From Halichondria panicea (taxonomy: Eukaryota; Porifera; Demospongiae; Suberitida; Halichondriidae), in the NCBI RefSeq assembly GCF_963675165.1, contig NC_087389.1, positions 2,204,001 to 2,268,000 of the forward strand: a stretch of DNA of 64,000 nucleotides. Reading direction: 5' to 3'. The position numbers and the translations under genes were made by a program. Shown here piece after piece: positions 219-62,600 of the stretch. Each line of letters opens with the position of its first letter. Positions within the stretch are counted from its first letter, which is position 1. A model generated the notes under the pieces. It saw only the letters and a program-made list of their open reading frames with translations. It was not told the origin of the DNA and ran no database searches.

Positions 219-12959
<12,741 letters not shown>

Positions 12960-13765
12960 ACTAGACTTCAGCAGAGTTATACAAATTCCTCAGTAAGCTT
13001 AGAGTGTTTTGGGGTCTGAGATAACCATACTAGACTTAGTAGATTTATACAAATCCGTCAGTATATAAGTTTTTATAAGCAGCTTGGGTCTGAGATCATC
13101 ACATTTGGCTGAGTCCATACCCCCGGCCCCGGCCCCATCACCAATAAAAGCACAGTGACAGAGTTCACTCAATAGCCAGGTCAGCACTTTTGTAAATGTG
13201 GAAGAGTCGATCGAGTGATCGTGAGTGAGTGGCGAGTGCAGTGCTAGTGGTATGGCATAGATGATACAGTACTGTATCATCTATGGGTATGGTGGATGAT
13301 TTGCCCTGATTTGCCAGAGGATCTAGGACCACCAGGAGTTGATCAAATAGTGTAAGTGAGCAGAACAATGGATTGTAATATTTAAGATCTGTGGTATCTA
13401 TATATATCTAGTATCATTATAAATATTAAAAAACAGGCATAGGTAGACACTAGGTAGTTGCCATTATTGTAGAAACTCTACTGGTACCTGCCATGTAATT
13501 TTATAAGGTTGTGTGCCCAATAATTTGTTAGCTCCGCTGTTAATTAGTGTTGTGGAAATAGTTTCGTGTGCCCCCCTCCCTTTGTTACTGCAAGTGACTG
13601 AATACCACACATCTAGTTCCCAGTCAAACAACTACAAGCAATCTACCCCCTCTGTTGTACAGTTTTTTGGAACTTGCAGCCATAGTCTGCAAATACTGTT
13701 TGTTGTGTACTAGAGATATTATGGTTCATTGTTGCTAGTGCCTCACACAACTGTGTAGAAACATT

Positions 13766-16573: not shown

Positions 16574-19110
16574 TGGATATGGATGAAGATAGCCACGATG
16601 GAGAACTAGATGATAGCGAAGATTCTGAAGATGAGACACTTACTAAAACACCTCCAGTTTCATTAAACTTGAAGCTTTACTGTGCAACAGATGAGGCCCA
16701 GTCTAGATCTGTTAAAATTGTCACTCCCTGCACACCAAGAACTATTCTAGATGTTAAACTGTGTGTAGAGAACGAGCTCAGCATACCAGCCTGTTGTCAA
16801 GAATTGAGCTTTGAATCTCAGAAGCTGCGAGATTGTGATTCTGTCGAAGTGTTAAAAATTAGAGAAGGGGATACGTTGACAATCAACTATGAAAGTGAAG
16901 GAATGGTTGAGGATGTCAGGGAGATCATCAAAGGAATGAAATCTATGAATCGTATTCTCAGAAAAAAGACGATCAGAAAGTGACTAGAAAATGGCGGTGG
17001 ATGTGATACCGAAATTTCTAATAATCTAGACACAGTTAAAGTTAAAGTTCAGTTACTGGCTTCTGCATACTTTCACCCACCTACCGACCCTAGGAGCAAA
17101 GCTAACCGGTTGTTCTTCGTAAGCAACAACGGCCTTCAGATCATGCACCAACTTCACGTAGAGCTGCTTAGATATCCATGGGACAAATGTGTGCTGGAAA
17201 TGCAGTATCTAGAGCATTCAATTTTAAATGTTCTATGGGATCTTTCGGCATCTTTTTCGATCAGACTGCTGCTGCTGGAAAGACCAACTTTGGAGGCTGT
17301 GATAAAGTCACTAGTTAGAGTAGAAATTCCCGCTAATTCATTTTTTCATGGTCCGATTGGGTCATCATACGAGTACAAGAGAATCACAAGTGAAATGCTA
17401 TACATGGCTGTTGGAGTTGTTAGCAAGTAAGTACTACCTAAGACATCACTAATCAAAAAGAGGTTTATCGCCCACGCTCATAGTAAAACATAAACAACTA
17501 CTACCCATAATTATGCCTCGGTGCGCATGCGCAAGCGAGGTATACGGTAGTGTGTTTTTGTGTGTGTGTGTGTGTGTACGTGTGCATGTGTAGACTGCTA
17601 CAGCTGCTCAAGGATGAATCAAGTGCAAGTAAGAGTTTCTATAGGCTTCTAGTCATGTTTTCTTGGATTTTATTTCGTGGATTTGCAAAATAATGCTTCG
17701 TTCTCGAGTTATGCCTAGTTTTGCTTACTTGGAATACCATTGCAACCTTTTCAGAAGAGCACGTAAGAGTGAGAAGAGAGCTGAAAAGCTCTGCTGATGG
17801 CAACCATTACGCACTTGAACTTTTGGCATTGATCGTTAATTTTTAACAACAATTATGGTCAATCATTACCCACTCTTTGAGTTTGCATGCAGTAAAATAT
17901 TGCAAAAATAGCTATTAGTAGCTTTATAGCTTTGGCATCTCCACCGAGGCATCAACACCTGCGGTGCTTTCATTACTATGGTGGTTATTTTAATATCCAT
18001 TTTCAACTGATAACCACAAACATCAACATGTTAAAATTGCAATACCTACAAACATAATATTTATTATCTAAACACATAGTTTGGCTGAAATCCCTAACTG
18101 TCGAGTGGCAATTGCGTCCAGGAAGGATGTGCTGGATCAACTACTGGCCACACTGACCTGTCCTACCTACACTTACATTGACTCACTGGTGCGTCTGTAG
18201 GGCTACTGTGTCTTGCTTACAGGTGAACACCTTGTACATAGCAATGAGATTATGATAATCAATTGATATAATTATTGTACATACATTATTACAATTAATA
18301 TCATAACTACACGCGCAGACAATCACATGATTATAATTTATATGCATGCAACAACGTTCTCTCTCTATACATACATACATGAACTCACAGCCCTGAAACC
18401 CACCAGTATCTGATTAAAGACAATGTTATCCGCAAGTTTGACAAAGCATGTGACTCTGTCAAGGATCACACTCACATGGACGAACAGCTGCTTAAGTAAG
18501 TCAAACGGTATCTCAACTATGCGTTTGAAAGTCATTATTTCTGTACAGATACTTTTGTTGCGTATTTTATGCTCTACTGCTGTCCACCTCACCGGCCATG
18601 ATCCCAACTCATGCGAAACTACAGATGAAACATGCCATGAAAAACTTTCTAGAGTCAGCTGATTATGAAACAATTAGAGATCACGAGAAAAAGAACGGGT
18701 ACACTTGGACGACTGTTACTCACTTCGTCAAGCTCGTTTACATTCCTAAGCAGAGTTCCCAGTGGTCTATCTGCACTCCAAAGGAGGTCATAGCCGAAAA
18801 CAACGAACTAGAAGATCTCTGCATCGAGACTGGTGTCTTTATTCTACAAAACGTGCTTCTATCCAACGACACTCGAGAGATTCTAAAGGCTGAATCATTG
18901 GTGGACTATATAGTATGCATGCCCTGGCATCTGTCACCGGATACAAAGGCACACGTAAGAGCATGTGCTCTAAGACAGTTTCTAAGCAGCAAAATGCAGT
19001 TACAACCTCCAACGCTTGTTAACCTGGCCAAGGCTAAACTTGCTGTGAGTCATTGTGGGCTAGAGAGAGCAGTGAAAGCCCGAGGCTTGCATGACATTGT
19101 TGCAGCATAG
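16574..19110 (+). pseudogene. Broken copy of the Ubl-armadillo family gene
   Basis: Close relative of the intact gene at 47579-49992, with matching exon blocks 16574-17426, 18080-18222, 18391-18495 and 18549-19110. At least two lesions are visible: a CGA to TGA nonsense change at 16981-16983, just after the ubiquitin-like domain, and a one-base deletion near 18192 (GGTGCG where the relative has GGTAGCG). The acidic N-terminal repeats of the relative are absent; this copy begins ATGGATATGGATGAAGATAG, like the gene at 41296. Its first intron carries a 462-bp repeat absent from the relative. A truncated ubiquitin-like product of about 136 residues remains possible. Confidence 0.85.
17515..17976. 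mobile_element. Dispersed repeat family H (CGAGGTATACGGTAGTGTGT, GT-rich)
   Basis: Begins GCCTCGGTGCGCATGCGCAA, has a GT microsatellite near the left end, and ends in CACCGAGGCATCAACACC followed by GCGGTGCTTTCATTAC; the outer ends are inverted. Other copies: 39087-39636 and 55914-56406. The corresponding intron at about 48845 is an empty site (CATAATTATTATGGTGG), so the exact insertion can be read. Confidence 0.85.
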
Positions 19111-19183
19111 GCCATTAGTGTGTGTTCGTGTGCATTTTTAACTGGCTTTATAGATGGTATTTTTGTAAACCAACAACCTTAAT

Positions 19184-22100
19184 ACAAATTAATGGACACA
19201 AACATTGCAATAATCATGTTTACAAAGCTAACTACACTAGAAAATCCTTGGATATGTGCATCACTGGGATGTGTGGATTTGTTCTTGTATCGATCTTTGA
19301 TTTCCCCCTGCCCCTCTCCTGCTACACACAGGAAGGAGCCCCACTGTCCAGCACTGACCAGAAGAAGCAGTGATTCAGGTGTTAGCCTAACGAAAGACCT
19401 GAAGCATACAAAGGGACCGGCAATTCATATTTTCCATTCAGTTGAAACGAATTGGGCTGGGTATAGTTACTCACAGGACCATACAAATACAAGTTCGTAC
19501 TTTGCTATGGGGACACTCACTAGATAGAGGATCGTGATCCTATCACTTGGAACACAGTGAGATAAGCAAATATCATGTTGTTAAAGGAGATGATGCCGCG
19601 ACGAGGCCCCTCAGGCCACTCTGCACAGGTGCTACCGTATGGGCAGCTGTGACTGCCATCAATACTCTGATTTTGAGTACAGGGGAACTCACTCACTAGC
19701 ACAGTCCTGTTTATACCTGCAAAGGTCAAATGTGTGTATAGCACATGCGTAACTCCATACTAGGCAACTACACATGTAGTATATACATGTAGCATATAAT
19801 AATTGTAATAAAAAACAGTAGAGCATTCACCGACCGTAACATTATGGGGAATGATTGTGAATCTATAAAGCATCGATTAGAAAACTGTGTTTTTGGTGTT
19901 TTTGTTGCCTTCAAGATCGGCCTAAAGTTTCAACTATAAGTAGCCTATTTTTTCAACCACTGTCTCATTTCAGCAGTCCATCAAAGTGTTTAGTTCGCTC
20001 AAACAGCTCATTATTGTGTCCACACACACACACACCAATCACTCTACCCCTGCTGCGCATGCACGGGGTAATTATAATAATTATAACATAGACCAAATCT
20101 ACGTGTACAAGAACAAACACTTAAGAAATGAGTCACACAAATGTACACTCTACAACCAAGCACAACGAGCGATAGAGCCTAGATAGCAACGATTAATGAT
20201 TCATACCAGCTGGAGTGAGGTGTGAGGCGAAGCATCCTTTATGTAGTCTGCCGTTAAACAGCTGTATACCAATTAGTGCCAGGAAGGTGATGACAATGAA
20301 AGTGAGGACACCCAGGTAGAAAAGAGGAGCAACCGACTTGGCCAGAGCCTTCAAAATGAACTGGACACCTACAATGAATTGACTGATGAGGGTTAGATGC
20401 CCCAGAATAAACTCACACCAAATAATACACTATACATGCATGCATGTGTACTAGTACCAGCTCTGAATCATAATACTTGCTACAGTCTTGTGGATGTGAT
20501 ATTGTCAAACACTGTGGTTCAGGCTGTAGTATAACTTTAGGGGTGTTTAATTTTGGTTAAGAAGTTGGTGTCGGGTCTTGGCCACATTTCAACTATATAG
20601 CTACACCCGTACCGAGCATAACAAATAATTTAGTAAGTATCAATCACTATAGCAGGGTGTACTAGCAGTCTTACTTTCCGATAAGGCGAACAACTTGATG
20701 AGCTTGAAGGCCATAAATGAAGCAAAAATCTCTCCGACCAGCGGGTTAATATTGGACGTTGCTATATACAGGATCCTGAATTGAAGAGTGTGGAACACAG
20801 CTTTCAATAAGACGTGTGAAACAAATTGTAGCAAATAAAGAAAGTAGGAAAACTAACTTTGAAAGCTGCCACATTCATAACTGTACAATCATCAACAGTG
20901 TAAAGACAACTGCTAGAAAAGCTGACAAGTTGTCAACTAGCTAACGTAATACACTCCACACTCACCCCACAATGATGACAAAGATGTCTAGGACATGAGC
21001 GTATTTCCGTAAGTAAGCCTTCGGAGAGTGGACCAGGCTGTAAGCTATGATGTTGAGTACTGCCTCCATTATGTACAGGACTAGTACCACTACGGTAACA
21101 TAATACTGCAAGGATAATTAAGAGAGCATTGCACGGCATCAGTAAACTAAAATTGACAGGTACAGGTAGAAAAAACACACTACATGTGTCTGCAATGGTG
21201 TAGCGAATCTCACACCCCTCCCAGCTGAATAAGAAGAAAACACTGCGGGCCAGTGCCTATTAATCTAGAAGTTCTATAATTGCCACGTACGATAACTGTA
21301 TTGATAAGGGTATCATCTCCGTTTATGGTTGGAATGTAGAAACACTGTGTCACAAAGTGCAGCAGCACCACCAGAGCCATGAAGAGCTTGAACACTCTGC
21401 ACAGAAAAAAAGGAAATATGCTAGGTAGTTACGCAAACAACTTACCCTGACTTGGCTATTTTCTTCACATTTTTTCTAAACCAGCCATTTTTATGGAAGA
21501 TGAACAATGAGTAGTGTTCTCTGCTGCTTCCAATCTTATTGATAAATCTTCGTACTCGATGGAGGAGTCTGCTTTCTGTAGTAAATGTCCCCTGAACAGA
21601 CCCCCTGTGGTGAAGGACACGACTTCTCAGGGCCTGAATCTCGTGATCGGAGATGTTCACCTCCTCAAGAGTGTTTACACGGAGTCGGCGAAGGCTTGAG
21701 GATTGCCTACAGATGAGTGAACAAGCGGACCGTTTAAGCGTCAAAATGTCACATGTCACTATAAAAAATTATCATTACAAAAAAATGCCGAGATTTAAAC
21801 TGATCTTGAGATTCAAACCTCTGTTCTAAATTTTACACGACAGGACCAACCATACACAACTAACCTGGTTTCAAGTGAGGTGAATGACTGGTCAATAAAT
21901 GGGCTTGCAGGACGTACTCCTGACCCCACAGCCTCTGACAAGCTCTGTCTTCTCCTCCTGAATGCAGCCATACTAGACTTTAGCAGAGTTATACAAATTC
22001 CTCAGTAAGCTTGGAGTGTTTTTGGGTCTGAGATAGCCATACTAGACTTGAGTAGATTTATACAAATCCGTCAGTACATAAGTTTTTATAAGCAGCTTGG

Positions 22101-22753
22101 GTCTGAGATCATCACATGTACATTATTTGGCTGAGTCCCATACCCCCATCACCAATAAAAGCACAGTGACAGAGTTCACTCAATAGCCAGGTCAGCACTT
22201 TTGTAACAAATTAAATGTGGAAGAGTCGATCGAGTGATTTCGAGTGGCGAGTGCAGTGGTGGATGATTTGCCCTGATTTGCCAGAGGATCTGGGACCACC
22301 AGGAGTTGATCAAATAGTGTAAGTGAGCAGAACAATGAATTGTAATAATGCGTTAAGATCTGTGGTATCTTATTAAACTAGTGTAGATCTATGTATCTAG
22401 ATATATTATATAATTATATATAATATCATTATAAATATTAAAACAGGCAGAGGTAGACACTAGGTAGTTGCCATTATTGTAGAAACTCTACTGGTACCTG
22501 CCATGTAATTTTATAAGTTTGTGTAGAATCTTAGCTCCTCGTGTTAATTAGTGTTGTGCAAATAGTTTCGTGTGCCCCCTCCCTTTGTTACTGCAAGTGA
22601 CTGAATACCACATCTAGTTCCCAGTCAAAACAACTACAAGCAATCTACCCCCTCTGTTGTACAGTTTTTTGGAACTTGCAGCCATAGTCTGCAAATACTG
22701 TTTGTTGTGTACTAGAGATATTACAGTTCATTGTTGCTAGTGCCTTACACAAT
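19184..22753. repeat. Segmental duplication, copy 2 (truncated calcium-channel side)
   Basis: Direct-orientation copy of 9895-13751, including exons 1-7 of the channel gene, the tRNA-like relic in intron 1 and upstream DNA. It lacks the MITE of copy 1 and has small indels in non-coding parts. Confidence 0.9.
19520..21971 (-). pseudogene. Truncated duplicate of calcium-channel exons 1-7
   Basis: Repeats the start codon (21971), N-terminal exons, domain I S1-S5 and part of the pore exon of the neighbouring channel. In the pore exon, 13 bp present in copy 1 are deleted (GATCCTATCACTT at about 19536-19548). This removes the selectivity-filter codons for LEGW and shifts the frame to an early stop. 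No S6 or later domain follows; the Ubl-armadillo pseudogene comes next. A protein of roughly 350 residues with five helices could still be made, but no ion pore is possible. Confidence 0.88.
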
Positions 22754-23093: not shown

Positions 23094-26000
23094 ATGGACG
23101 TAGTGCCGGCCCTCTCACTGGACGCCATCCCCTATCCCCTGAACGAGCAGTCGCTGATGGACAAGGTGGAGAGCTTGACGGCAGCCATTGCTGAGGCTAA
23201 CGAGGAGAGGGCACAGGCAGCTGAGTATGGGTTGGTGCTGTTGTCAGAGAAACAGGCCCTGAGGAGTCAATACGATGAGCTGAGTGGACTGTACGAAAGC
23301 ACGAAGAGGGAGCTGGAGAACTCAGTCGATGTGAGTCTCTGTTGCACATATAGAGCATTGTATGTAATTTCTTCACATCAGGCAGTTTGTGCTCCATAAG
23401 TTATCTTACTGTAGTACATGATTATATTGAATCATGCATCTTATGTGTGTGCATGCAGGCTATCAAGCAAGTCCAAGCCGACTATGAGAAGAGGCTGAAG
23501 GAGGTGGAGTCACAGAGAGAGCAGCTGCTCGACGAAATGGAGACCAGAGAGACCTCTCTTATAGCAAAGGTGTGAGTGGGTCATCTTTATTGAGTGAATG
23601 TATACCGTACAATGAGTTGAAATTGCATGTGTCAAGGGAATGTCATAAATAATTACGTGTACACACTCATACTTGAAATTGGCAGCCGAGCCATAAACAT
23701 GAACATGCATGCCTGCTGCTCTGTATGAACTGAGAACTGAGACTGTTGTGCATGTTTTAGGTTGACAAGCTGGGGGAGGATATACGGCAACTAGAGAGGA
23801 AGCTGAAGCAGTCTACCTCAGAACAGGAGCACCTTAATGGCCATAACACATTCCTTAATGCTGAACTGGACAGGTGAGCAATGTAAATTAATTATAATTA
23901 TCTCCTGCGTACTACGCTATAATTATTTATCTATACGTGTAGATGCTGTAGAAATTCTAGTTTCTAATACATAATTATACATGTATTTGTAATTACTGTG
24001 TAGACTGTCCCTTATAAACGTGTTCCATTGTTGGCTCGCACCTTGTGTATATTTATGGATACAAGGATAAATTCTTTGTTCTGGCTTGGCCATATTTTAC
24101 TCATGGGTAGTAAATAGCATTGGTTGTTGATTCTGGGATGATCTCATAGTTGTAGTGGTTCTACAGCGGTACTATCGGCAGTAGTAGTTACCATGGGAAC
24201 GGTAGTTGAGTTGGTTGAACAATGAAGCACGAGTGCACCAGTTTGCACTTACTATTAGTACGTAGAAGCAGAAGGAGAAATAACGTATTATTCATTGTCG
24301 CTGCAGGCATAGGAGAGAGTGTGATGTTCTACGAGAGGATAACAGAAGATGGAAGCAAGAACAATTTACAGCTAACAGAGAGACAGATGACATGAAAAAA
24401 TACATTGAAAAGTTGGAAAAGAGAATTCAAAAACTGCTCAAATTTGAAGATGAATGTTCTGTGTTACAAGAAATGAACCAGACGCTGGCTCAAGAGTCTG
24501 AGTCTTTGTCTCATCAGTATGAACTCATTCTAACAGAAAAAGAAGAGCTAGAGAACCAGGCGAAACAGGTAGTGGAGGCACTCAACGAGGAAAGAGAAGC
24601 CAAGTCAATTCTCGAGACCAAACTCCAAGAAGAAGAGATACGTTCTCCGCCCCACCCCAGCTGGGCCATTGAGCGAGAGAGTGCCAGTCCCCCTCTGTTA
24701 TCCAGTAGCAAGAGGAACTCAATTAAGACGACTCCTGATCACACGAGACTCACGTCTCTCTCACCCACCCAGCGTGATGGTAGCTTAGAGCCCAACATGC
24801 AGTCGACACCGTACTCTCCTAAGAGAATGCCTAATTTATTGAGTGAGCTACAAAATTCATTTATGGGAAATGTGGACTCTGCCGAGCTGGAAACATTGCA
24901 GCAAAGGTGCCAGGAAGCTGAAAATACTATTACCTCTCTTCAGAAAGAGAAACTAGTATTGGAAGAGAAGGTTTCATCTTTTTCACTAGAGAAAACTGAA
25001 ACATTTACACGAATTGACAGTGTTAAGGAAGAGTATGCCAAAGCCATTTCCGAGAGGGACACATTGATATCTTCTCTTAAAGAGGATGTGCTCACGAAGG
25101 AGGAAGCCATTGGGCGATTAAGAAATCGACTCAACTCTGCATCAGCTGAGAAATCTTCAAAAGAAATTGAAGTTGAAGGTTTGAAGGACGAACTACAGCA
25201 CATCAAGGAATCATCTGTATGTGAAATGGAGAAAGCACAGAAAGAATACGTTGAAGAGCAGGTGAAAAATGCAGAACTGAGAGGTGAAGTGTCTGTGCTT
25301 GAAGAGCAGCTTGTATTTTTCTCTAACACAATTGAAAAACTCGAGAACATTATTTTCAGCTCACAAACGGAACTGACTTTGATGGCAGACGATCTTCACA
25401 ATCTCCACAAGACAGTGGTCACTCTCGGCTCTGAGAACAAACGTGGAGGGCCATCCCCATCCCCCAATAATCTAGTCGGAAATGACATAGCTCCTAATCT
25501 ATCCAATGAAGATGACAGTCTGAATCCATTCTACTCAATAAAGCTTGTGAAAAGAAAAACATCTGTTCCTGTCCATCACGAAAGCCAATCTTTGTTCGCT
25601 ATTGTCCAGCTTCATCAACAACTCCGTTCAATGAGGCTGCCACTAGAGCATTTTACAAAAACAATGCTCGAAAAATCTCTGGCTCATTCGGCAATCAAAC
25701 GTGTACCTTCAAACCCCACCTCTCCCACACTAGGTGCAGCTGGTGACAAGAAGACTAACCTTGATTTAGAAGCGAGTGTCAACAAATGGAAGGCGAAGCT
25801 TGCTCACAAGATTGAAGAAATCAGCAATCTCCGTGCCATCATGAAGGCTCGATCCACAACCACTGACGTTGCCATCAGCAGTCTGAGAAGCAAGCTAGAG
25901 GGACAGGCTAGAGCCTACCAAACAGAGCTCACCAGACTAAAGCACCAGCTAAAGATGTTGAGGAAAGAGAAAGATGAGCAGCTCAATTTGAGGACCATGT

Positions 26001-26209
26001 ATGCCAAACGTTGCCAAGAGCATGCAAATGAGATCACAAAATTGAAGAGAGACATTGAGAGCATGACTATTCAGTATGAAGATGTGATGATATCGCTCAA
26101 GAAGACCATTCAGCGCAAACTGGAGCTAGCTACTGAGCTGGATGAGTACAGGATGGAGCAAGAGAGACTCCACCTTATTCCCAAACTGTTAGGCTCTTCT
26201 AGAATATAG
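23094..26209 (+). CDS. BICD: Bicaudal D homologue, dynein-dynactin cargo adaptor
   Basis: Coiled-coil adaptor that links dynein-dynactin to cargo. Four exons (23094-23330, 23459-23569, 23761-23873, 24307-26209) give 787 residues, near the size of animal BICD proteins. Near residue 40 is the CC1-box type motif AQAAEYGLVLL, which in BICD family members contacts the dynein light intermediate chain. The rest is heptad-rich coiled coil with a Ser/Pro-rich break (about residues 230-310). The last 110 residues (SSLRSKLEGQARAYQTELTR, then RTMYAKRCQEHANEITKLKR) match the BICD C-terminal cargo-binding coil. The huge last exon is striking among otherwise well-split neighbours. The start is the first ATG of the exon; confidence is high from both ends of the protein. 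Confidence 0.92.
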
Positions 26210-41295: not shown

Positions 41296-43230
41296 ATGTA
41301 TATGGATATGGTTCACGAGGATATATCTTTGCCTTGTAGATCTAGTTACAACATATTTCTTCATTGCACTACAACAAAGCAATCCGAACAGAAAGTGGTG
41401 AGTTTCGACAACACTCCTCTGAATATTTTGGATGTGAAACGACAAATCGAAAAACGTTTTAGCATTCCAGTTTGTGTGCAAGTCATTGCGTACAATAGTT
41501 GCATCTTAAAAGATGATACCATACTGATAGCACTGAGAATTCGTGACGGGGACACCTTCCATGTGAAATACTTGGAGAAAGGTCATTGCTCTGAGATTGT
41601 TGAAATCATTGATTGGATGAGACTTGTTTTGGCTGGAATTCAGCTTGAGAATCCTTCAGCTACTGTTGACATGAGTTGGGAGCTCAATAATCTGGTCACA
41701 CGAGGTATAAATAATGAGATGATTCAGTCTCTTGCTTTTAAGTATTTTTTTCCGTGGCTTGACCCAGTGAAGTATGTGAACAAGCTCCACTTTGCTTACC
41801 ATGGTGGTGTTGAGATCTTAATGGAGTTGGATGGAGCTTTACTTCAGGAAAAATGGCAGGAAAGGCATATGATATTACAACTCGTTGAATCGTTGTTGTT
41901 GAGAGTCATATGGAATCTTTCAGAAACTTTTCCTCTACGCCGAGCTATAACTAAGAATAAGGGCATTGAGAGATGTATTCAGTCGATGCTTCACTACAAA
42001 CTGGAGGAAGGGAGCCGATTTGAGTATGTAGTATCCAACCATTCATTTGAGGGAGTACTGAGAGATACTATTGTTGGTGGGCTGGGAGTGTTATGCAAGT
42101 AAGCTCATGAGATATCGTTTTGCATGGTGTATTTCTGGATATAAGTATATTCATGGGTTTAATATACAGTCATGTAGGTGCTAGATTTAACTACACTGTT
42201 ATTTCCGTGCAGTTTGAGTGAACTACCAGAGTGTCACTTGGAAATAGCCTCCAACGAAGATGCTTTGGAGCAGATGACTAACATCGGTGCATCACCATAT
42301 CTGCCAATTGATTGCTCGCATCATGTGGTGACCATTTTCCTCTGTCTGGCCCACACTCCTGGAACACATGAGAAGATAAGCAAGCCCAGGTATCTTACAA
42401 AACTGCTGGATGCTCTCAGCATTGAAAGAGATCTGGATGCAGACCAGCTCGATATTGACCGTATACCAGACTGCTCTCACCTTCTTCTCAGGTATTATTA
42501 AAAAAATATTGACATTAATTTTGAGCATTGTTATATATATACCAGTGTTCAAGGCTCACTTCCCGACCAGTTGTTGGGCAAAATTTACAGCTGCACTAAA
42601 AACTGAAATAATTTTATGTGAAACTGCTGTTCCTATAATAATTATGTACGTCATTATAACTAGACGTTTTGCACATGCAGGTATTTTGTCCTCCTATTCT
42701 TGGCTCAAGTGGCTCTAGCGTCACCACAGTGCATCCCTACTGACTTACACCTAACCATCATCGATGAAATGATGTTACTATTGCGATTCACATGCTATGA
42801 GATTATCAGGCGCGGTGAACTGACGCAGAATTATGTGTGGTGTACGTACATACCCTACATCAAGCTTGCCTATATTCCAAGTACCCCGCATATAAACAAT
42901 CCAGCTTGCATTCTACAGGTGTGGAGTTTGGAAATAATCATATTTGCACTTCAAAATATGCTTGGTCGTGAAAATCATAGAGAATTTCTCGTGAAAGAAG
43001 GACTTTTAGATTTTGTTACATGTATGCCACAGTACGTCCCCCCTTCATTGAAATCCCGAGCTACAAACCTGGTGCAAATGGTTGCTTCTTCTCCAGATGT
43101 CCCAGAGGGACCTCCCAAACTGCTGAACTTGGTGAAAGCACGATTAGCTAAAATGCACTTTGGATTGGAGAATGTTCTTTCTATGTCTGTCAGCGAAATT
43201 GTTTCTCAAGCTTTTGCCACCAATTTTTAA
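41296..43230 (+). CDS. Ubiquitin-like domain plus armadillo-like helical protein (intact gene 1)
   Basis: I do not recognise a named family. Three exons (41296-42098, 42213-42491, 42681-43230) give 543 residues. Residues about 15-95 look like a ubiquitin fold (NILDVKRQIEKRFSIPVCVQ, then RIRDGDTFHVKYLEKG), spaced as in ubiquitin but without a terminal Gly-Gly. A helical region follows, whose segment NLSELPECHLEIASNEDALE resembles an armadillo repeat (L-x-x-L/I-P-x-C...I-A-S). The C-terminal block PPKLLNLVKARLAKMHFGLE is strongly conserved with the other copies. Its second exon equals the second and third exons of the gene at 47579, so one intron was gained or lost. Head to head with APPL. It could be a scaffold or shuttle binding ubiquitin receptors; that is a guess. 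Confidence 0.8.
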
Positions 43231-43416
43231 CCAACATTCGTACTTTAATTTGCTCTGCTCATTTTTGCTAGTGTGTATAATTATAATGATATAACGTACC
43301 AAACAATAATTTTTATACAGTCGACAGTGTGGAGTGTCACACATCACACTAATTATTATGAAAAGCTATTGTATATAATACAAACAGTCAACAAACAAGG
43401 GGTGAGGTTAATGAGT

Positions 43417-46400
43417 TCACTTAACAAAATCAGGTGGATTTAATCGTTTAATGAACGTTTCTTCATCATTGAGGCTCCCATATGAACTGGACGAACCAAA
43501 GCTCTCAGCCAATAGCGAGTTGTCAGGGAAGCGGGATTTCTTTCTAATGCCTAGAGGCTTTGTTATGCTCCAACTGGTCACTTTGAATGGGTCGACAGAT
43601 TTGTCCCTTACTGATACATTGATTTCCCCGTCCCGGGACGCGGCAGTCTCTTGCTTCAGATCTTTGTTCATTCTACGGTGAGAAAATGTAGCGATGGATT
43701 GGTGTAAACGAGCCCTATATGAAGTGTAAGTGCAGTCCAGGCTATATGTAAGAAGCTAAGAAGCATACTATTACAACCAGTAGTACAATTTCAGTAATCA
43801 TGCTGCAGTGGTTTCTCAACAAACTGTGGCCACAAAATGTACTAACCTGAAGTAGTTACTAAGGAAAATCCAATAAACCACTGGTGGAAAGGTTGTTATG
43901 TAGATGACGTTTGTGATTAGGGTAAGACTGTGTGGCGAGAAACAATGCAGAATTATTGCATATACTATTGCATGTACAGTAGCGACCTTTTGCTTACCAA
44001 ATCCCTGCACTCCCAACTTCTTCATTATTTCCTCCTTTGATCCACATTAGACTACCCGTTGTCTGAACAAGGTTTACCAATGACAGAAACAAGGCATACC
44101 TATAAAAAGATTTTTTAGCTGCAAGCAAGGGAAAAGTAACATTTAAGGTCAGTACATGAAAACATTAATGTTATTACTTACATGGCAAACTCCAACGCTC
44201 ATGTAGTTTGAACAAGTACATTCCGTACGTAATCAGGTAAGCCTGTGACGATTCAGTACACCAGAATAATTAAAGATATGCATTTCGCTCAACTTACAAA
44301 TGTGAAGAGTATCGATGTAAGAAATAGAAACACCATCCCTCCATGAGTAAAAAAATTGAAGTCATAGCAAGCCAAATGCAATGGTTTTTCATACTCCATC
44401 ACTCCCTGCACAAATATAAAAAACAAATAATATTATGTCATGTACAAGGGCATAGGGCATTGAGGGGGGGGCAGGCGTTCCCATATTAGTTATATATCCA
44501 TAATTATTATTAAGAGTCAGCACGCCCTGCCAACGCCAGAACCCCTCTACTGGCATAAGTTGTCTACGCCCTTGATGTACATGGTATAGGCCTATGCAAA
44601 AAATTAGTACCTCTATGATTGTGAACAGCCCAGCCACTGTTAGAATGATACAAACTGTAACAGCCAACTTGCATTGCTTGTTGTTGTAGAACTCTGCAGA
44701 ATAGAAATTAAATGAGTGTTGTAGTGAGTAGAGAGACTCAGAGGGCGGCTATACATTGAAGCGAGTGGCCCATCCTTATCTAGCCTCGTTCCCAGATCGA
44801 TTTTTTTTTAATAGAACAAAGTTGAAAAATACTAGTTGACGACCTAGTGTTATTTTAGAGACAACGAGGCTTGGGAACGAGGCTAATCCCTATATCATGA
44901 TCAACAATCACTCTGAGCTATGAACATTATACTCTGAATTTGTAGCTCTGCAGTCTGCAGTCCGTAGTTAAAATCTATCATTACAGACCTGAGTCATAAA
45001 CTATGTTGTTAAAAACCAACAGAATAGCGAAGTTGAATAGTAAGTGTGCCGCTGGAGCATAGCGTTGTGCATTGTCTGAAACTAAAGTCTATTTGCGTTG
45101 AGTTCGGAAACCTCTCCGACGTCTGGTGATTCAGAACGATCATTCAGTCAATGTTGCGGACTAGGCTAGACGAGGGGAGTTGAATGGAGGACATAGCACC
45201 CAACAGTACCACTGTGGAGAAGACACTTTTGTTAGAAACCATTGTTGTTGGACTGGGTACACTTACAATGACTATAATTATATTGTGTGTGTATTGCTGT
45301 GTGCCCTACAGCATACAGTTTGAGTGAGCTACCTGAGAGTCACATGGAAATCGCCTCCAATGACGATGCTCTCCACCAGCTGACCTGTATCTCCCTAATG
45401 CCTTCGGTTCGCATCGTATCTCCTCCAATTTTGGTTTGTTCCTCTGTGTATCATACACCCCAGAGACACACAAGTAGATTCGTAAACCTGTCCAGGTGGT
45501 TGCTTTATGCATACAAAATACCTCGATAAGTGCTAGGGAAGAAGACCTCCCCTTGCTCAGGTAAAGTACTGTGCTACGTACCATATCCACATGTATGTAC
45601 AGTAGAACCTCGCTAATCCGGACCCCTTTAACCTCGAAAATCCGGACAAAATGGCAAACTGAAAAAGAGGAGGGGCTGTCAGTAGAATAGAGTACTGCGC
45701 ATGCGCAAGGAAAATTGCTTAGCTGAATCAGCAAAAATTTTATTGATAAACTGCTTAAGACAATGGCCACTGCAAAGAAAACGAAGAGAGAGCTCACAAG
45801 ACTCACTGTATTGGAGAGAAAGTTGAGATAAAGACTATTCTAGCTAGCAGCTTCCCTTCTGGCCACAGTAATATCATAATACATGTACAAAAGTGTCTTC
45901 GTTAATGATATTCATAATCAATTAATGACATCTGTTAATCCGGAAATTTCATGTATTCGGATGGGGTCTGGTCCCGCTCTATTCGGATTAGCGAGGTTCT
46001 ACTGTACATAATAACCACGTCACTATAATACTACCCAGACACCTGAGTCGTAATCGCTATACTCCTGTACATATACAAGCCCAGGCAAAGCTATTATTAT
46101 GTAGCCATATATGGCGATTACTTTCCTGTATAAGAAGAAGTTGTAAGGCAATACCCACATTTAAACATATAGTATCTACCTACCAAGGCATACCGTCACT
46201 TTGTTATGACAATTAATACACTGACAGGCGGGATGGTTATATGGTCTTATTTATGGCTGGAATGCAGCACTTATGCTAATCTCCTAATCAAATGTCACTT
46301 CAGGTTCACCATGGTATTACATATTATTATTACATATTCCTTGCTCTAGTCTCCATGGTATCACCGCAATACACCCCACAAAAGTACCAAAAGCAAATAA

Positions 46401-49400
46401 TCAATCATTGCTGCAAAACGATATAATGCAATAATTATGAAGCTAAACACTGGTATGTGTGGGCTGCCTTACATCAAGTTTGCCTATGTGCCCAACACGC
46501 AGATTGAGGATCCATGGCAAACATTTCAACTACTGAGCTTAGAAGTGTAAAAAGCAGACTTTGCAATGTTATATACATGTATATGCCACAGTACGTCCCC
46601 CCTTCATTGAAATCCTGTAGCTCAGTGCAAATGGTTGCTTCTTCTCCAGACGTCCCAGAGGGACCCTAAACTCGGTGAGCACGATGCACTTTGGTTTAGA
46701 ACATTTTATTTTTAGTGAGAAGTTGAGCCTTGATTATTCGAACCCCGATCATCTGAATTTGGATGAAAGATTCGACCAGGCAAACACCTACTCGCGCATG
46801 CGCATTAAGTGCCCACGTGGTTGTGTTGCTGATTAGCAGAAGTAGTTAGCCTAACATGCAGTGTAGCTTGCTACCTTGTTCTGTCCACTGACTGATGCAT
46901 TATGTCCAAGACTAGTACATTTGTAAGAGATCGTTTGCTGATTTTGCATGCAGAGGCTATTTGAATAATTGATGGGCATGGATCATTATTTTAGAGTCAT
47001 TAATATTTCAGCCATCCGGATGAGGTGGGGACACCAGGTATTCGAGGCTCAACTGTAGTGAGACATTTTTGAATGTTTACATGTACGTGTGAATACATTT
47101 TTGTGGTTGAATTATGGTTGAACTTAGTACTGATGAGTCAGCAATAATTATTAGCAGGTACCTTACTTTAGCTAGCTAGCTAAGCTTGTATTACTACTAT
47201 ATGCTATTCGTGGTAACACCAGGTATTCGAGGCTCAACTGTAGTGTGAATGTTTACGTGTGAATACATTCTTGTGGTTGAATTATGGTTGAACTTAGTAC
47301 TGATGAGTCAACAATATTAGCAAAAAGTAGGTACCTTGCTATAGCTAGCTAGCTAAGCTTGTATTACTACTATATGCTATTCGTGGTAACACCAGGTATT
47401 CGAGGCTCAACTGTAGTGAGACATTTTTTATGTTTACATGTGAATACATTCTTGTGGTTGAATTATAGTCAAACTAAGTACTGATGAGTCAGCAATAATT
47501 TAGCAAAAGTAGGTGGGGTACCTTGTTAGTGATCTAAAGCTATTCAGTCACATAGCTAGCTAGAGCTAGAGCTAGACAATGGGTAACAAACACCCACAAC
47601 CAGGAACCAAGAAGGCAGTACAAGCAGTAGCCGAAAGAGACGAACCAGATCACCCTGAAACTTGTTCTAAAGACCAGAACAGTGAGCCTAACAAAACAGT
47701 TCACCCTGAAGTGTCTTCTAAAGATCAAAACAGTGATCTTGACGAAACAGTTCACCCTGAAGCCACTTCTAAAGACCAAAACAGTGATCCTGACGAAACA
47801 GTTCACCCTGAAGCCACTTCTAAAGACCAGAGCAGTGATCATGACGAAGCAGTTCACACTGAAGAGCTTTCTAAAGACCATAACAATGAGCCCGATGAAG
47901 ATAGCCATGACGGAGAACTAGAGGATCAAGATGATAGCGAAGATTCTGAAGATGAGACACTTACTAAAACACCTCCAGTTTCATTAAACTTGAAGCTTTA
48001 CTGTGCAACAGATGAGGTCCGGTCTAGATCTGTTAAAATTGTCACTCCCTGCACACCAATAACTATTCTAGATGTTAAACTATGTGTAGAGAACGAGCTC
48101 AGCATACCAGCCTGTTGTCAAGAATTGAGCTTTGAATCTCAGAAGCTGCGAGATTGTGATTCTGTCGAAGTGTTAAAAATTAGAGAAGGGGATACGTTGA
48201 CAATCAACTATGAAAGTGAAGGAATGGTTGAGGATGTCAGGGAGATCATCAAGGGAATGAAATCTATGAATCGTTTTCTCAGAAAAAAGACTATCAGAAA
48301 GCGACTAGAAAATGGCAGTGGATGTGATACCGAAATTTCTAATAATCTAGACACAGTTCAAGTTGAGTCACTGGCTTCTGCATACTTTCACCCATCTGCC
48401 GACCCTAGGAGCAAAGCTAACCGGTTGTTCTTCGTAAGCAACAACGGCCTTCAGATCATGCACCAACTTCACGCAGAGCTGCTTAGATATCCATGGGACA
48501 AATGTGTGCTGGAAATGCAGTATCTAGAGCATTCAATTTTAAGAGTTCTATGGAATCTTTCGGCAGCTTTTTCAATCAGACTGCTACTGCTGGAAAGACC
48601 AACTTTGGAGGCTGTGATAAAGTCACTAGTTAGAGTAGAAATTCCCGCTAATTCATTCTTTCAAGGTCCGATTGGGTCATCATACGAGTACAAGAGAATC
48701 ACAAGTGAAATGCTCTACAAAGCTGTTGGAACTATTGGCAAGTAAGTACTACCTAAGACATCACTAATCAGAAAGAGGTTTATCGCCCACACTCATACAT
48801 AATATTAGTACAAAAGCATAAACAACAACTATTACCCATAATTATTATGGTGGTTATTTTAATATCCATTTTCAACTGATACCACAAACATCAACACGTT
48901 AAAATTGCAATACCTACAAACATAATATTTACTGTCTAAACACATAGTTTGGCTGAAATCCCTAACTGTCGAGTGGCAATTGCGTCCAGGAAGGATGTGC
49001 TGGATCAACTACTGGCCACACTGACCAGTCCTACCTACACCTACATTGCCTCACTGGTAGCGTCTGCAGGGCTACTGTGTCTTGCTTACAGGTGAACACC
49101 TTGTACTATACACATAGCAATTGCGTTATGACACTTACAGCACAATGAGACTATGATAATTAATTGACATAATTATTGTACAAATACAATTAATAATTAT
49201 CATAACTACACGCGCAGACAATCACATGATTATATATGCAACAACGTTCTCTCTCTATATATGAACTCACAGCCCTGAAACCCACCAGTATCTAATTAAA
49301 GACAATGTGATCCGCAAGTTCGACAAAGCATGTGACTCTGTCAAGCATCACACTCACATGGACGAACAGCTGCTTAAGTAAGTCAAACGGTATCTCAACT

Positions 49401-51887
49401 ATGCTTTTGAAAGTCAGTATTTCTGTACAGATACTTTCGTTGCGTGTTTTATGCTCTACTGCTGTCCACCTCACCGGCCATGATCCCAACTCATGCGAAA
49501 CTACAGATGAAACATGCCATGAAAAACTTTCTAGAGTCAGCTGATTATGAAACAATTAGAGAACACGAGAAAAAGAAAGGGTACATTTGGTCGACTGTTG
49601 CTCACTTTGTCAAGCTCGTTTACATTCCTAAGCAGAGTTCCCAGTGGTCTATCTGCACTCCGAAGGAGGTCATAGCCGAAAACAACGAACTAGAAGATCT
49701 CTGCATTGAGGCTGGTGTCTTTAGTCTACAAAACGTGCTTCTATCCAATGACACTCGAGAGATTCTAAAGGCTGAATCATTGGTGGACTATATAGTATGC
49801 ATGCCCTGGCATCTGTCACCGGATACAAAGGCACACGTAAGAGCATGTGCTCTAAGACAGTTTCTAAGCAGCAAGATGCAGTTACAACCTCCAACGCTTG
49901 TTAACCTGGCCAAGGCTAAACTTGCTGTGAGTCATTGTGGGCTGGAGAGAGTAGTGAAAGCCAGAGGCTTGCATGACATTGTTGCAGCATAAGCCATTAA
50001 TGTGTGTTCGTGTGCATTTTTAACACACTCATTTATTTTTCTTATAACCATGCATACAGATGGTAATTTTTTGTTTTCTTCTTTCACATAATGTTATTGT
50101 ACAATTTGCATTAAAATGCTTTACGCTTTTAGGAGCATCAATCTATTGGCTATAATTAACTGATGCTAAACGACAACTAAGAAAATCAACCAACCATGCA
50201 GATTTGTACGTACATATATAGCATTTAATTCAACTCAATTAACTCACTGAAGAAGAGACCGAAGACAACAACACATAGCTCAGTCATGAGGATAGAGCCC
50301 CTCAGAAGTGTGTGCAGAGCCTGCATGTGAAATCGAACCAATTTGTTAGGAATGTATAAAAGTCTTAATGATTGACAGATATAAAAATGACAACATGTAT
50401 CAGATCCAAACATGCATTGTGCATTACGTTATACGTTATTGAAAATGTCACTGTGGCCAAGGCTATTACATGGCACATGTCTACAAATGTACACCCATAC
50501 ATGTACCTTAGCAGCAACAGTGTAGTATCCGATGCACATGGAGACCACTCCATACAGGCAGCTCATTGTCGGGATGACAAACACCTGCACCGACAATAAT
50601 GCAATGAATATTGATACACAAAATTCACGATACATTAATAGTTCAAGATACATAGTTATGCTAAGTGGATTCAGTGAATACTGAGTCAAAATTTGCACCA
50701 ACACATTGTCTAGGTATTGAATTTCAGTAGTGCATTATACATGTAGAATATAGTTATAGTACAGAATTTCACTGAATGTACATTAATTGTCTCTCTACGC
50801 TACAGTCATCATTCTCATCACTGGGATCATTGAAAACACAGGCATCACAGGACTAAGATTTAATCAAAACACAACACATAGAACACGTACATGCATATAC
50901 ACCATATACCACAAAACAAGCAATAGAAATGTACTAACCATAAAGTAGAGGATCCTGAAGAGAGCCACGCTACCCTGCAGCTTGCGCACCATGGCAACCA
51001 ACTGAATGAGCAGGAAGCAGAGGAACAAGGCACTCAGAACCAGCAGAACCAGGTCGTACACCCGTACACTGTGAGAAAGGGGTTATAAAAATAAACAACT
51101 CTTCCATGATTATAATAACTACTCATGTGTCTTAGATGATATGATTATACCAAGGTTTAGCTGTGTCCCTAATTAGACATTATAAAGCTACCTGGTTATA
51201 GAGACCACAATTTTATTGTAAGAGGCCATCAGACCTATTCTCATCAAATAATACATGGAAAATTAATCGACCCAGCAGTAACAAAACAGTACCTGACAGT
51301 TTGTGGCAAATGGATGATACAAACGACTATAACAATGTGGTCAAAGGGAGAGAGCAATATTGATTGCTCGTTGTAAAAGTGACAGCCAATCACATTATTA
51401 GCTTAAACGCAGGTATTGTAAAGGGCAATGTCATCTTGGTACCTACACAGGAGTGAAGTGAAATTCTCTATAATCGCATGTTGTCCTACTATTCACTGTA
51501 ATTCGTACAGTGATTAATCGCGTATCAGTAATTGCACGTCGTCAAGAATGACGTGCAATTACGCGGCTACTGAAACTGCAGCTAAAAATGTCCTTAAAAC
51601 TGCGATTAACAATCAATAGCGCTATAGCATGGCTACTCGTGCTATTAATCCCATATTGCACTCTTAGCCATACTAGTAATTATACTAATTATCATTACAG
51701 TAACTCACAGAGTGTTATCGACTCTCCAGCTGAGCACTTGTACACAGAAGGGGAAGACGATGCAAGAGGAGTTGGTGAGATTGGTATCATTACAGCCTCC
51801 TAGTTCCAACTTTGGTGGTGGGAACAGTATGTGAGTGTACTCACAGTCACGATTAATGAAGCACCAGGATTGGTTCTTACTCTCCAT
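43417..51887 (-). CDS. TPRA1: TPRA1-like seven-transmembrane protein (THH1/TOM1/TOM3 type)
   Basis: Multi-pass membrane protein resembling transmembrane protein adipocyte-associated 1. Eleven exons (51709-51887, 50939-51068, 50507-50584, 50248-50320, 44989-45051, 44611-44693, 44298-44405, 44178-44242, 43998-44099, 43847-43927, 43417-43672) give 405 residues in frame. The extracellular N-terminus is Cys-rich with N-glycosylation sequons (NDTN, NSSC). Seven hydrophobic stretches follow: YDLVLLVLSALFLCFLLIQ, a segment spanning exons 2-3 ending in SMCIGYYTVA, LRGSILMTELCVVVFGLFF, LLFNFAILLVF, VTVCIILTVAGLFTIIE, GGMVFLFLTSILFTF and VIYITTFPPVVYWIFL. The tail is Ser-rich (SFGSSSSYGSLNDEE). Residue pattern and the RVYDLVLL motif parallel RYWDLLLL of TPRA1. 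Intron 4 (45052-50247) contains an intact gene and a relic of the Ubl-armadillo family on the opposite strand. Confidence 0.7.
44445..44574. mobile_element. MITE family M, short copy
   Basis: Ends CAAGGGCATAG and CTACGCCCTTG (inverted), with a partial ATGTA duplication outside. Only 130 bp long. It lies in a TPRA1-like intron. Confidence 0.65.
44781..44885. mobile_element. Small MITE, relative of 6784-6898
   Basis: Left end TAGCCTCGTTCCCAGATCGA and inverted right end GCTTGGGAACGAGGCTA around an AT-rich core. It lies in a TPRA1-like intron. Confidence 0.7.
45187..46700 (+). pseudogene. Relic of a Ubl-armadillo gene
   Basis: Fragments follow the order of the gene at 41296: GAGAAGACACTTTTGTTAGA near 45210; ACAGTTTGAGTGAGCTACCT near 45312 (start of exon 2); CTTACATCAAGTTTGCCTAT near 46470; and CCACAGTACGTCCCCCCTTC near 46588. 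The ubiquitin-like part is missing, and the remaining parts carry stops and deletions (for example AATCCTGTAGCTC and a truncated C-terminus). A pogo-like MITE (45599-46006) interrupts it. Closer to the 41296 gene than to the 47579 gene. Confidence 0.8.
45599..46006. mobile_element. Pogo/Tigger-like MITE
   Basis: Inverted ends TACAGTAGAACCTCGCTAAT and ATTAGCGAGGTTCTACTGTA, about 408 bp, flanked by TA. These ends resemble those of pogo-type elements. It has inserted into the Ubl-armadillo relic. No transposase frame. Confidence 0.8.
46720..47057. mobile_element. Pogo/Tigger-like MITE (GTTGAGCCTTGATTATTCGA ends)
   Basis: Left end GTTGAGCCTTGATTATTCGA and inverted right end GTATTCGAGGCTCAACTGTA. 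The right end also begins the tandem array that follows. Confidence 0.65.
47037..47530. repeat. Tandem repeat, about 175-184 bp unit, nearly three copies
   Basis: Units begin with AGGTATTCGAGGCTCAACTG at about 47037, 47221 and 47394. Each continues through TGAATACATTCTTGTGGTTG, GTACTGATGAGTCA and TAGCTAGCTAGCTAAGCTTG. Each unit starts with a MITE end, so the array was probably built from the end of the element at 46720. It stops about 50 bp before the start codon of the next gene. Confidence 0.9.
47579..49992 (+). CDS. Ubiquitin-like domain plus armadillo-like helical protein with acidic N-terminal repeats (intact gene 2)
   Basis: Four exons (47579-48741, 48948-49091, 49273-49377, 49431-49992) give 657 residues. 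Residues about 25-110 hold five tandem 17-residue acidic repeats of type HPEATSKDQNSDPDETV, then DSEDSEDE. Residues about 125-215 form a ubiquitin-like domain (ILDVKLCVENELSIPACCQE, LKIREGDTLTINYESEG) without a C-terminal Gly-Gly. Armadillo-like helices follow, with NLAEIPNCRVAIASRKDVLD and SPTYTYIASLVASAGLLCLA. The C-terminus (PPTLVNLAKAKLAVSHCGLE) matches the gene at 41296. It lies antisense within intron 4 of the TPRA1-like gene. Function unknown; the domain mix suggests a protein-protein scaffold. Confidence 0.82.
50110..50115 (+). terminator. Possible polyadenylation signal (ATTAAA) of intact gene 2
   Basis: An ATTAAA hexamer in CATTAAAATGC, about 120 bp after the stop codon at 49992, is the first good candidate downstream of this gene. 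No transcript evidence. Confidence 0.35.
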
Positions 51888-52380: not shown

Positions 52381-59399
<7,019 letters not shown>

Positions 59400-59653: not shown

Positions 59654-62600
59654 ATGTCTAGAACACTGCTCCGTGCTGTCTCCACCTTTGGTGTAATTAG
59701 GGTAGCTGCTTTTAGAGGCTCATCTGTACTACAGCAAAGATGCTATACCCCTGGATCTGCCCTCAATGTCACTGTGGAGCACCTGCAGGATGAGCATACT
59801 GGTATTATAATTTTACCTTTTAATTATAGCATAAACCGCCATACAAACCTCTTATGGAAAATTATGCTGGGTGGGCGCGAAATGTCCACGTAATTCCAAC
59901 AGCATATATGGGGTCCTGATTGCTCCTGAATGCAGCCTGTAGTGTACACACTCTACTAGCAATTAATTTATAAGTTTATAAGTGATTGTGGGCCAGGGCT
60001 GCTATACAATTGATTGAGTAGTCGGTACATGTAGTACATAACTTGTGAATTTCGAAAATTGTGTTCTCAGTACTAGCTGGGAACTCCATGCCTATGGAAT
60101 TATTTTGGGCGTACAGTTATATGTGCTTATAGTTGACAATTTATCCCTGCAGAGATTGCAATCCAGTAGCTAATTTGATTATTCTTTTCTTCACAGGGGT
60201 TTCAGTGATTGCCTTCAACAGACCTGAAGCATTGAATGCAATGAGCAGAAAGTTTGTGAGTGAGGTAAAACCTATTCATCTTGTGTGCCAGGTTAATAAA
60301 TTGTGAATACTCTCTTCCATCAGTTTGATGATGCCCTTGGCTCCCTCCGATTCAACCGCAATGTTCGAGTGATCATTCTCAGGAGTGTGGTTCCGGGAAT
60401 TTTTTGTGCTGGTGCTGACTTGAAGGAGAGGAAGACAATCCCACCCGAGGATGTGGGGCCATTGGTTGCTAAGGGGCGGAGGATCATTGGAGACCTCAGC
60501 AGCATGCCTATGCCCGTCATCACCGCCCTAGATGGAGGGGCATATGGAGGAGGACTGGAGATGGCCCTGGCAACAGATATAAGGATTGCAGGTATAAGGG
60601 ATAATTACACTTTTAATACTGTACTCATCATTTGCTTTCTTCTTTTAGCTGACTCTGCAAAAATGGGTCTCACTGAAACGCGTCTTGCTATTATCCCCGG
60701 TGGTGGTAAGTGCAATAGATTGCCTGATTGCAACACTTTAGTTGGTGCCATGGTGGCTGGTTAATCATTGTTTTGTACATTGTTTTGTACATACAGTATA
60801 ACCCCGATATCTGAACACCTTGGTTCTAGAGGCAGGCCGGATAACTAATTGTGCCGGATAATCGAATAGATAACCATGCCTTGATCCACCCACTTAATTG
60901 ATAAACAACAGTGCCACATGGTTGTTTGCGTGCATGCGCAGAAGATAAGCAGGCCTGTCTTGATAGTAACAGCTGCAATGCGCATGCGCATTTAAGGGAC
61001 ACGCCCATTTTTTGAATTATTAAAAAGAAAATTGTCAAGGCAAGCCGGATAATCATAATGGAGGGCGGGATAATCGAGATTCTACTATGTACTGTGTAAT
61101 TCGAAGTAACATTCTAGCTCCGCCCAACTACTTCTTGGCACACCCCAATATTATTATTGGATAGAGCTGACCAAAGTGATGAACATGCGTAACGAGGTTG
61201 CACTCTTAGTGTATCCTAGTTTAGCTACTTGTCAATTCTCAGGAGCCACAGTATAGAGAGACTATTTTGTATGATAGATGAACTCTGACCCTTTTCAAGG
61301 CTATAGCTAATATAATAACTGAAAAGTTGGCAGGAGATGCACAGGGTGTTGTGTGTTTCCAGGATCACTAGGAGAGTTAAATGTGTGCATGCCTAGAGCC
61401 TACATCAAGAGGTCATGCCATGTCACTGTTGAGCCCAGATATAGATATAGAGAGACTATTATTTTTGTATGATAGATGAACTCTGACCCTTTTCAATGCT
61501 ATAGCTAAATAACTGAAAAGTTGGCAGGAGATGTTCAGGGTGTTGTGTGTTTCCAGGATCACTAGGAGAGTTAAATGTGTGCCTAGAGCCTACATCAAGA
61601 GGTCATGCCATGTCACTGTTGAGAAGAGTCTTGTAGGAGAGCATTCAATAGCTACAATGAGCCTAAGCAGAGCTCCAGTAAACAGCATCGACTTGGCACT
61701 TGCTCAGCAGTTCAATGAGACTCTTAAGAGCATACATCAATCAGGAGACTGTGATGCCTTGGTTATAAAATCATGTATTCCCAAAGTGTTCTGTGCTGGC
61801 CTGGATCTTGCTGAGTTGTATCAACCGTCAAAATCCCGTTTGGAAGAGTTCTGGAGGGAGATTCAAGAGTTGTGGCTTGGTCTGTATTCATCCAAGCTGC
61901 CGACTGTAGCTGCCATTAACGGACACTGCCTTGCTGGAGGATGCATCATTGCCTCTTCATGTGACTATCGGATTGCAGCTAAAGGGGACTATTCGATTGG
62001 TGTGATTGCGGCTAAGGTCGGTGTAATAGCTCCACCGTGGTTTCTGAAGATGTTAGCTCATCTAATTGGGCAACGAATGACAGAGCTTGCTCTCCAACAA
62101 GGACGACTATTTACTCCCGATAATGCCTTAAAAATCGGACTTGTGGATAAAGTGTGTGATCCTAGTGATTTGAAAGAACAAACTCTAGAGGCAGTGTCTC
62201 CATTTCTGAGTGTGTCCCAAGAATCACGTTCAACAATGAAGTTGTTTATGCGATCTGAACTCATTGAATCCTTCAAAGCTTTAAGAGATAGAGAGGTTTT
62301 AACCTTTATCAGCTTTATCATGGCAGATTCAGTACAAGAAAAACTTGGACATTACATACAAAAACTAAATCAGAAGTAATAATACAGTTGATATTGATTT
62401 ATGTGTATTTTTCTACTATTTACTATAGGGGGAACCCAGCGTTTGCCACGGCTGGTGGGTATTGGTAAAGCCAAAGAACTCATTTACTCTGCCAAAGTAG
62501 TGTCTGGCACCGAAGCAGCAGACATAGGACTTGCTGAGCATGTGGTCCCACAGAATGAGAATTCAGACGCTGCATACCAGAGAGCATTACAGTTAGCTAC

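Follow-up and report, generated by a model that had tools for sequence, protein, structure and literature searches.

Two genes that lie close together in the genome of the sponge Halichondria panicea appear to combine a ubiquitin-like domain (Ubl) with a long helical region, and the question that they raise is whether such a combination belongs to a family that is already known and, if not, what kind of protein it may represent. The genes are found in a window of 64,000 nucleotides, at positions 2204001-2268000 of contig 13; the assembly comprises 131 Mb in 39 contigs. The original prediction, made from the letters of this stretch, described two intact genes of 543 and 657 residues, here called A and B, along with a relic and a pseudogene, as a clustered and expanding family with a Ubl, armadillo-like helices and a conserved C-terminal block. 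Both gene models were placed correctly, with GT..AG introns and frames that are open to the stop codon (Table 1), and both introns of gene A are in phase 2. Similarity between the two proteins extends from the Ubl through to the C-terminal block (E 1e-76), and at 31% identity over 527 columns they are as well diverged from each other as had been claimed. Protein B has an acidic N-terminus of approximately 130 residues that carries a 51-bp tandem repeat, and A is without such a stretch. A separate tandem repeat, with a unit of 173 bp in 2.4 copies, is present immediately 5' of gene B (window positions 47084-47514). N-myristoylation of B was considered on account of its MGNK start, and was set aside since, by eye, this start does not fit the PROSITE rule.

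Table 1. Positions of the genes, gene copies and domains described in the text. Positions are those of the window unless a contig is given.
Feature	Position	Strand	Description
Gene A	41296..43230	+	543 aa; exons 41296-42098, 42213-42491, 42681-43230 (stop included); open frame, GT..AG introns
Ubl of A (residues 17-95)	41344..41580	+	PF00240 and profiles against PDB ubiquitin, DSK2, FAT10
C-terminal block of A, conserved (residues 441-534)	42919..43200	+	Identity to D 41%, B 40%, C 23%
Gene B	47579..49992	+	657 aa; exons 47579-48741, 48948-49091, 49273-49377, 49431-49992 (stop included); open frame, GT..AG introns
Tandem repeat in acidic N-terminus of B	47639..47889	+	51-bp unit, 4.9 copies, in frame, 17-aa unit
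Ubl of B (about residues 135-213)	47981..48217	+	PF00240 match under cut-off; alignment with A, C, D and ubiquitin
C-terminal block of B, conserved (about residues 560-654)	49696..49980	+	Family alignment and regional identities
B', pseudogene of B	16582..19142	+	DNA match to B 47894-50024; introns present
Relic of a copy of A	45142..46710	+	Fragments of A spanning residues 228-527 (approximate), with several stop codons and changes of frame
Gene C	contig 1, 14.938-14.940 Mb		505 residues placed, three exons
Gene D	contig 4, 0.955-0.958 Mb	-	627 residues, eight exons, GT..AG introns
Tandem-Ubl frames examined	C5:314000-317600, C2:8059000-8061800, C10:2170000-2173200, C2:8150000-8153000, C5:5368900-5371700, C15:4664000-4667000		

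The genome was searched at the protein level with exon 1 of B, with A, with the C-terminal block of A and with two additional genes, C and D, as queries, and the counts obtained are lower bounds. At least six loci were identified in the 131 Mb, namely A, B, the pseudogene of B (B'), the relic, C and D. The sole match outside these six loci, on contig 7, had an E-value of 2.05 and was regarded as noise, and a DNA search of the genome with part of exon 1 of B returned B and B' only. Gene D, for which some exon junctions were placed by hand from the reading frame and then checked, encodes an N-terminal extension of its own and, with seven introns, is the most intron-rich member. For gene C, a scan of the upstream DNA for the first exon provided seven short candidates, none of which was convincing; with its first exon unplaced, C may not be intact. 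The whole-genome copy count, which had been asked for beforehand in the original prediction, therefore stands at a minimum of four non-dead genes on three contigs. Clustering was seen for A, B, B' and the relic, all of which lie within the window, but does not extend to C and D, which are present on two other contigs.

Pairwise BLAST comparisons connected B with C (E 6e-33), A with D (4e-28), A with C (2e-24) and B with D (1e-19). The direct comparison of C with D was not significant (E 0.33), and these two are joined via A and B. Overall pairwise identity among the four proteins was 15-32%, indicating that the family is old. When the alignment was divided into regions, mean pairwise identity was 27.7% in the Ubl, 12.5% in the linker, 18.7%, 23.3% and 23.5% in the ARM-N, ARM-mid and ARM-C segments of the helical (ARM) region, and 29.3% in the C-terminal block, with the two ends, the Ubl and the C-terminal block, being the most conserved. 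The predicted sharing of these two elements was confirmed by the alignment, in which A-D are homologous from end to end. The four proteins represent one homologous unit, in which a Ubl is followed by a poorly conserved linker, by approximately 400 residues that show helical periodicity and by a conserved C-terminal block. All four genes share two phase-2 introns at identical alignment columns, 405 and 503, which is strong and partly independent support for a common ancestor and indicates that the layout is old. The extra phase-2 intron of B, at column 455, is four columns away from a phase-2 intron of D at column 459, and the pair may represent a third shared, ancestral intron. A profile of A, B and C gave 101 pattern matches in prokaryotic contigs and 124 in viral contigs, none of which was confirmed by tblastn, and models of anti-phage defence systems showed no match to A, B or C.

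The Ubl of protein A matched PF00240 with an E-value of 1.6e-5 and 25.0 bits, just under the cut-off of 25.4. Matches to B (E 0.0016, 18.6 bits) and D (E 0.0042) were under the cut-off, and C did not match this model. When genomic frames were searched, A scored over the cut-off at 27.1 bits, B (21.9), B' (22.3) and D (22.9) scored under it, and C was not detected. A profile built from the four Ubls was compared with PDB sequences, and the best 60 of 398 matches included FAT10 (1e-7), DSK2 (3e-7), OASL (3e-4) and natural single ubiquitin chains, for which E-values ranged from 4e-5 upward; the much lower E-values of polyubiquitin chains are due to summed repeats. Residues K27, I36, P37 and D52 of the ubiquitin core are found in all four members, and ubiquitin positions 17, 26, 30, 43, 45, 50, 56, 61, 67 and 69 are hydrophobic in each of them, and among the exceptions in the core are G at position 23 and I at position 41, both in D. 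The periodicity of the domain leans to beta.

The Ile44 patch is the surface through which shuttle Ubls bind receptors of the ubiquitin system. Across the four members, position 44 of this surface is A/S/S/R, position 68 is H/T/T/E and position 70 is K/N/T/Q. The Leu8/Ile44/Val70 patch is thus absent at positions 44 and 70 in all members; position 8 is T/A/H/S, in a part of the alignment that is loose and where C is truncated. In all four members the Ubl ends without a C-terminal Gly-Gly, and the polypeptide continues into the linker. By profile, the Ubl is real, with its core kept and with its Ile44 surface and Gly-Gly lost. The original prediction of a Ubl without Gly-Gly agrees with these results both in the missing residues (0 of 4 members with Gly-Gly) and in the assignment of the domain by PF00240 and profile, and the further claim that the domain is not a modifier would follow from the absence of Gly-Gly in a chain that continues. 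Since positions 44, 68 and 70 are changed in addition, the Ubl is expected to act neither as a modifier nor as a ubiquitin mimic for receptors of the Ile44 patch, and is predicted not to bind ubiquitin receptors.

The helical moment of the region after the Ubl was 3.77, compared to 3.29 +- 0.18 for 200 shuffled versions. Of 200 column shuffles, 3 equalled the best pair of internal repeats, which is found around 'RVIWNLSETFPLRR' and 'GVLCNLSELPECHL', while the second-best pair (-0.3) was below the mean shuffled maximum (0.1) and other pairs were likewise unremarkable. Pfam matches to the ARM region, with E-value limits of 5 or 10, were WAPL (0.04), DUF2238 (0.058) and Nop (0.064), each in one of the four members and at noise level, and a single NCBIfam match (E 0.083) was also confined to one member. 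No enzyme family was found above noise for A-D in Pfam or NCBIfam. A four-member ARM profile matched six PDB sequences with E-values of 0.72-2.4. The top match (E 0.72) was an unrelated DNA polymerase III subunit, and the other five belong to one engineered series (6s9l-6s9p, E 1.1-2.4), of which 6s9o is titled a designed armadillo repeat protein; these matches to an engineered armadillo series are suggestive only. A three-member ARM profile matched two PDB sequences, neither of which was armadillo. The description of the helices as armadillo-like is likely in so far as helical periodicity and one repeat pair were detected, but is not borne out by the canonical Arm model PF00514, for which none of the 34 matches in the genome is at the A-D loci and for which hmmscan also found none. 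It is from these two signals, the weak repeat and the helical periodicity, that we read the region after the Ubl as a probable solenoid of the armadillo/HEAT type. Elsewhere in the genome, PF00514 identified an armadillo-repeat gene region on contig 16 that occurs three times (4704157, 4734893 and 4766115), with equal scores and in steps of approximately 31 kb.

The layout had been described as that of no named family, and indeed none was found in Pfam, NCBIfam or PDB sequences. In the literature, no described Ubl-armadillo family was present among the matches listed, as represented by the opening parts of their abstracts. The domain combination of a Ubl, a probable solenoid and a conserved C-terminal block is therefore unnamed in the curated libraries searched.

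Both of the decayed copies that had been reported in the window are real. The pseudogene, predicted at 16574-19110, is a copy of B with a stop and a frameshift. It matched B in two blocks of 92-93% DNA identity, or 96.5% and 90.0% when aligned by exon and intron, respectively, without gaps. It carries a TGA at codon 242, exon 2 has lost one base, and intron 1 contains additional DNA. The similarity starts within exon 1 and stops 32 bases past the stop codon, and no DNA similarity to B was found upstream of 47894, where the start codon, the acidic repeats and the 5' flank of B are located. The introns of B are retained in B', indicating that it was duplicated as DNA. Comparison of B with B' provided a dS of 0.058 and a dN of 0.028 (dN/dS about 0.49). 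At the 33 codons where the residues differ, one of which is the stop, A, C and D supported the residue of B and that of B' equally often (8 codons each), and were uninformative at the other 17. We considered whether B' was dead from its start, and this was unsupported by the symmetric polarisation (8 vs 8) with A, C and D as outgroups. A segmental duplication is also seen in this part of the window, between 9895-13750 and 19184-22752 (98% identity over 236 bp, 91% over 3.5 kb), and its second copy begins 42 bases past the end of B'. The relic is a decayed copy of A: two short blocks of its DNA are 83% identical to A, and its protein fragments are broken by stops and frame changes. It showed no match in DNA to the coding part of B.

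The family had also been called expanding, and this we reject, because A-D are old and both recent local copies are dead. At least six loci are present in 131 Mb, and the four non-dead genes are only 15-32% identical to each other. Clustering with pseudogenes alone is no evidence of expansion.

A scan of ten neighbouring frames in the window provided matches for four, and the genes identified were Bicaudal-D (PF09730, 4e-12), an MCM helicase exon and two enoyl-CoA hydratase/isomerase genes (24392-26206, 57200-57547, 60303-60761 and 61531-62376). In the genome as a whole, PF00240 gave 120 matches. These included tandem arrays of ubiquitin-like units in long single open frames (583-895 aa), in which many units are divergent and without Gly-Gly. 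We examined six of at least nine such frames, and the best unit of each showed 38-93% identity to ubiquitin. Near-ubiquitin units, some with Gly-Gly, are present too in the two frames on C5 (314000-317600 and 5368900-5371700), and two frames on C10 contain units that score like ubiquitin itself. The tandem-Ubl frames are possibly more unusual than the A-D family.

What, then, might these proteins do? We see an even chance that the four proteins form a small and old family of soluble, non-enzymatic adaptor (scaffold) proteins, since no enzymatic domain was recognised and an adaptor is the plain reading. The concave face of the solenoid, or the C-terminal cap, would grip a partner, and the Ubl, as a fixed module for docking or autoinhibition, would act via a face other than the hydrophobic patch of ubiquitin, being neither a tag nor a proteasome shuttle. 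The partner may differ between paralogues, as the linker and the first helices are the most diverged. By analogy, the Ubl could be positioned beside the helical body in the manner of the ubiquitin-fold RBD of ELMO, which is engaged by a small GTPase.

The loss of the Ile44 patch at positions 44 and 70 in all four members bears directly on a reading in which the proteins are adaptors of the proteasome or the ubiquitin system, where the proteasome or a ubiquitin-binding domain would be the docking site of the Ubl and substrates would be brought in by the solenoid, as in a shuttle like DSK2/RAD23 or a receptor like ZYG11B/ZER1. We consider this unlikely, although ubiquitin, FAT10 and DSK2 are the nearest relatives of the Ubl profile (among the best 60 of 398 matches) and the 'LWNLS...GxxxNLAE' motif may recall the armadillo region of ZYG11/ZER1. 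Pfam scans of A-D provided no UBA, VHL-box or LRR model, and no ZER1 or ZYG11B chain was found in the PDB profile searches. PF22964, the ZER1-like second domain, was not among the Pfam matches of A-D; the model gave no match anywhere in this genome, nor in any of the 14 control genomes, so it is uninformative. An alternative of another kind is that A-D are one or more divergent orthologues of a known, conserved animal protein, with D, the most intron-rich gene, resembling the parent. The eight exons and the private N-terminal extension of D would fit this, as would the phase-2 introns at column 459 of D and column 455 of B, through which B may keep a third ancestral intron, and fast-evolving solenoids are missed by HMM libraries. 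Against it, the ARM region gave only the noise-level matches to WAPL, DUF2238 and Nop in Pfam-A with E-value limits of 5 or 10, and no significant match in the PDB profile searches, and we regard this alternative as possible, if doubtful.

A fast-evolving immune or self-recognition family that turns over by local duplication appears very unlikely to us. The clustered genes with one dead copy each of A and B, the identity of just 31% between A and B, the dN/dS of about 0.49 between B and B' and the coding tandem repeat within B could all be read in this way. However, that same ratio is not above 1, the outgroup polarisation of B and B' is symmetric (8 vs 8, with 17 of 33 uninformative), the divergence is old with two intron positions kept, and only a small number of non-dead genes (at least four) was counted in 131 Mb, two of them on other contigs. 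Returning to the adaptor family, we would put at slightly below even the chances of a more specific proposal, namely that A-D belong to an unnamed animal family of Ubl-solenoid adaptors that stands apart from both ELMO and the ubiquitin-proteasome shuttles. In this family, a Ubl stripped of its patch and tail would be a permanent docking or switch module and the deeply conserved C-terminal cap would be the partner-binding site. If orthologues are present in other early animals, the proteins would define a new class of adaptors; if there are none, they would be a small family restricted to this lineage.

Among known systems, the Ubl of A-D belongs by profile to the same family (PF00240) as those of DSK2, FAT10 and OASL, and K27, I36-P37 and D52 are kept. 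In these proteins a Ubl is fused to a UBA domain (DSK2), to a second Ubl (FAT10) or to OAS (OASL). Unlike them, A-D lack the Ile44/Val70 surface and the Gly-Gly, and the Ubl is fused to a solenoid-like body. The 'LWNLS ... GNLAE' motifs of A-D may resemble the armadillo region of ZYG11/ZER1, but A-D differ in having no ZYG11B/ZER1 match in the PDB and no LRR or VHL-box model, and in carrying a Ubl instead. The Ubl of D showed a weak match, which was not significant (E 0.85), to 2daf (FLJ35834), presumably IQUB; IQUB contains an IQ motif and is not known to have an armadillo body.

Closest in layout is ELMO, in which an RBD, the helical EID and ELMO domains and a PH domain follow an order that recalls the N-terminal ubiquitin fold, the long helical body and the putative non-enzymatic adaptor role of A-D. 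Membership of A-D in the ELMO family was considered and rejected: in contrast to ELMO, A-D gave no ELMO family match in Pfam scans, and ELMO_ARM (PF11841) was found at one locus of the genome (C13:3468758), away from A-D. The genome's own ELMO at this locus (C13:3466500-3470600, 3.4687 Mb) is encoded in one open frame of 762 codons, or 749 residues from the first Met, and did not align significantly to the family, with an hhalign probability of 0.1% for a single-sequence template of low power. The comparison is thus one of layout only, and by any of the sequence tests used here the family is not ELMO. In a study of ELMO, the N-terminal RBD is described as a ubiquitin-like fold beside the helical EID and ELMO domains that binds RHOG-GTP, and the RHOG site as occluded in a closed, autoinhibited complex (PMC7351999). 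By analogy with this arrangement, the A-D family may work like ELMO.
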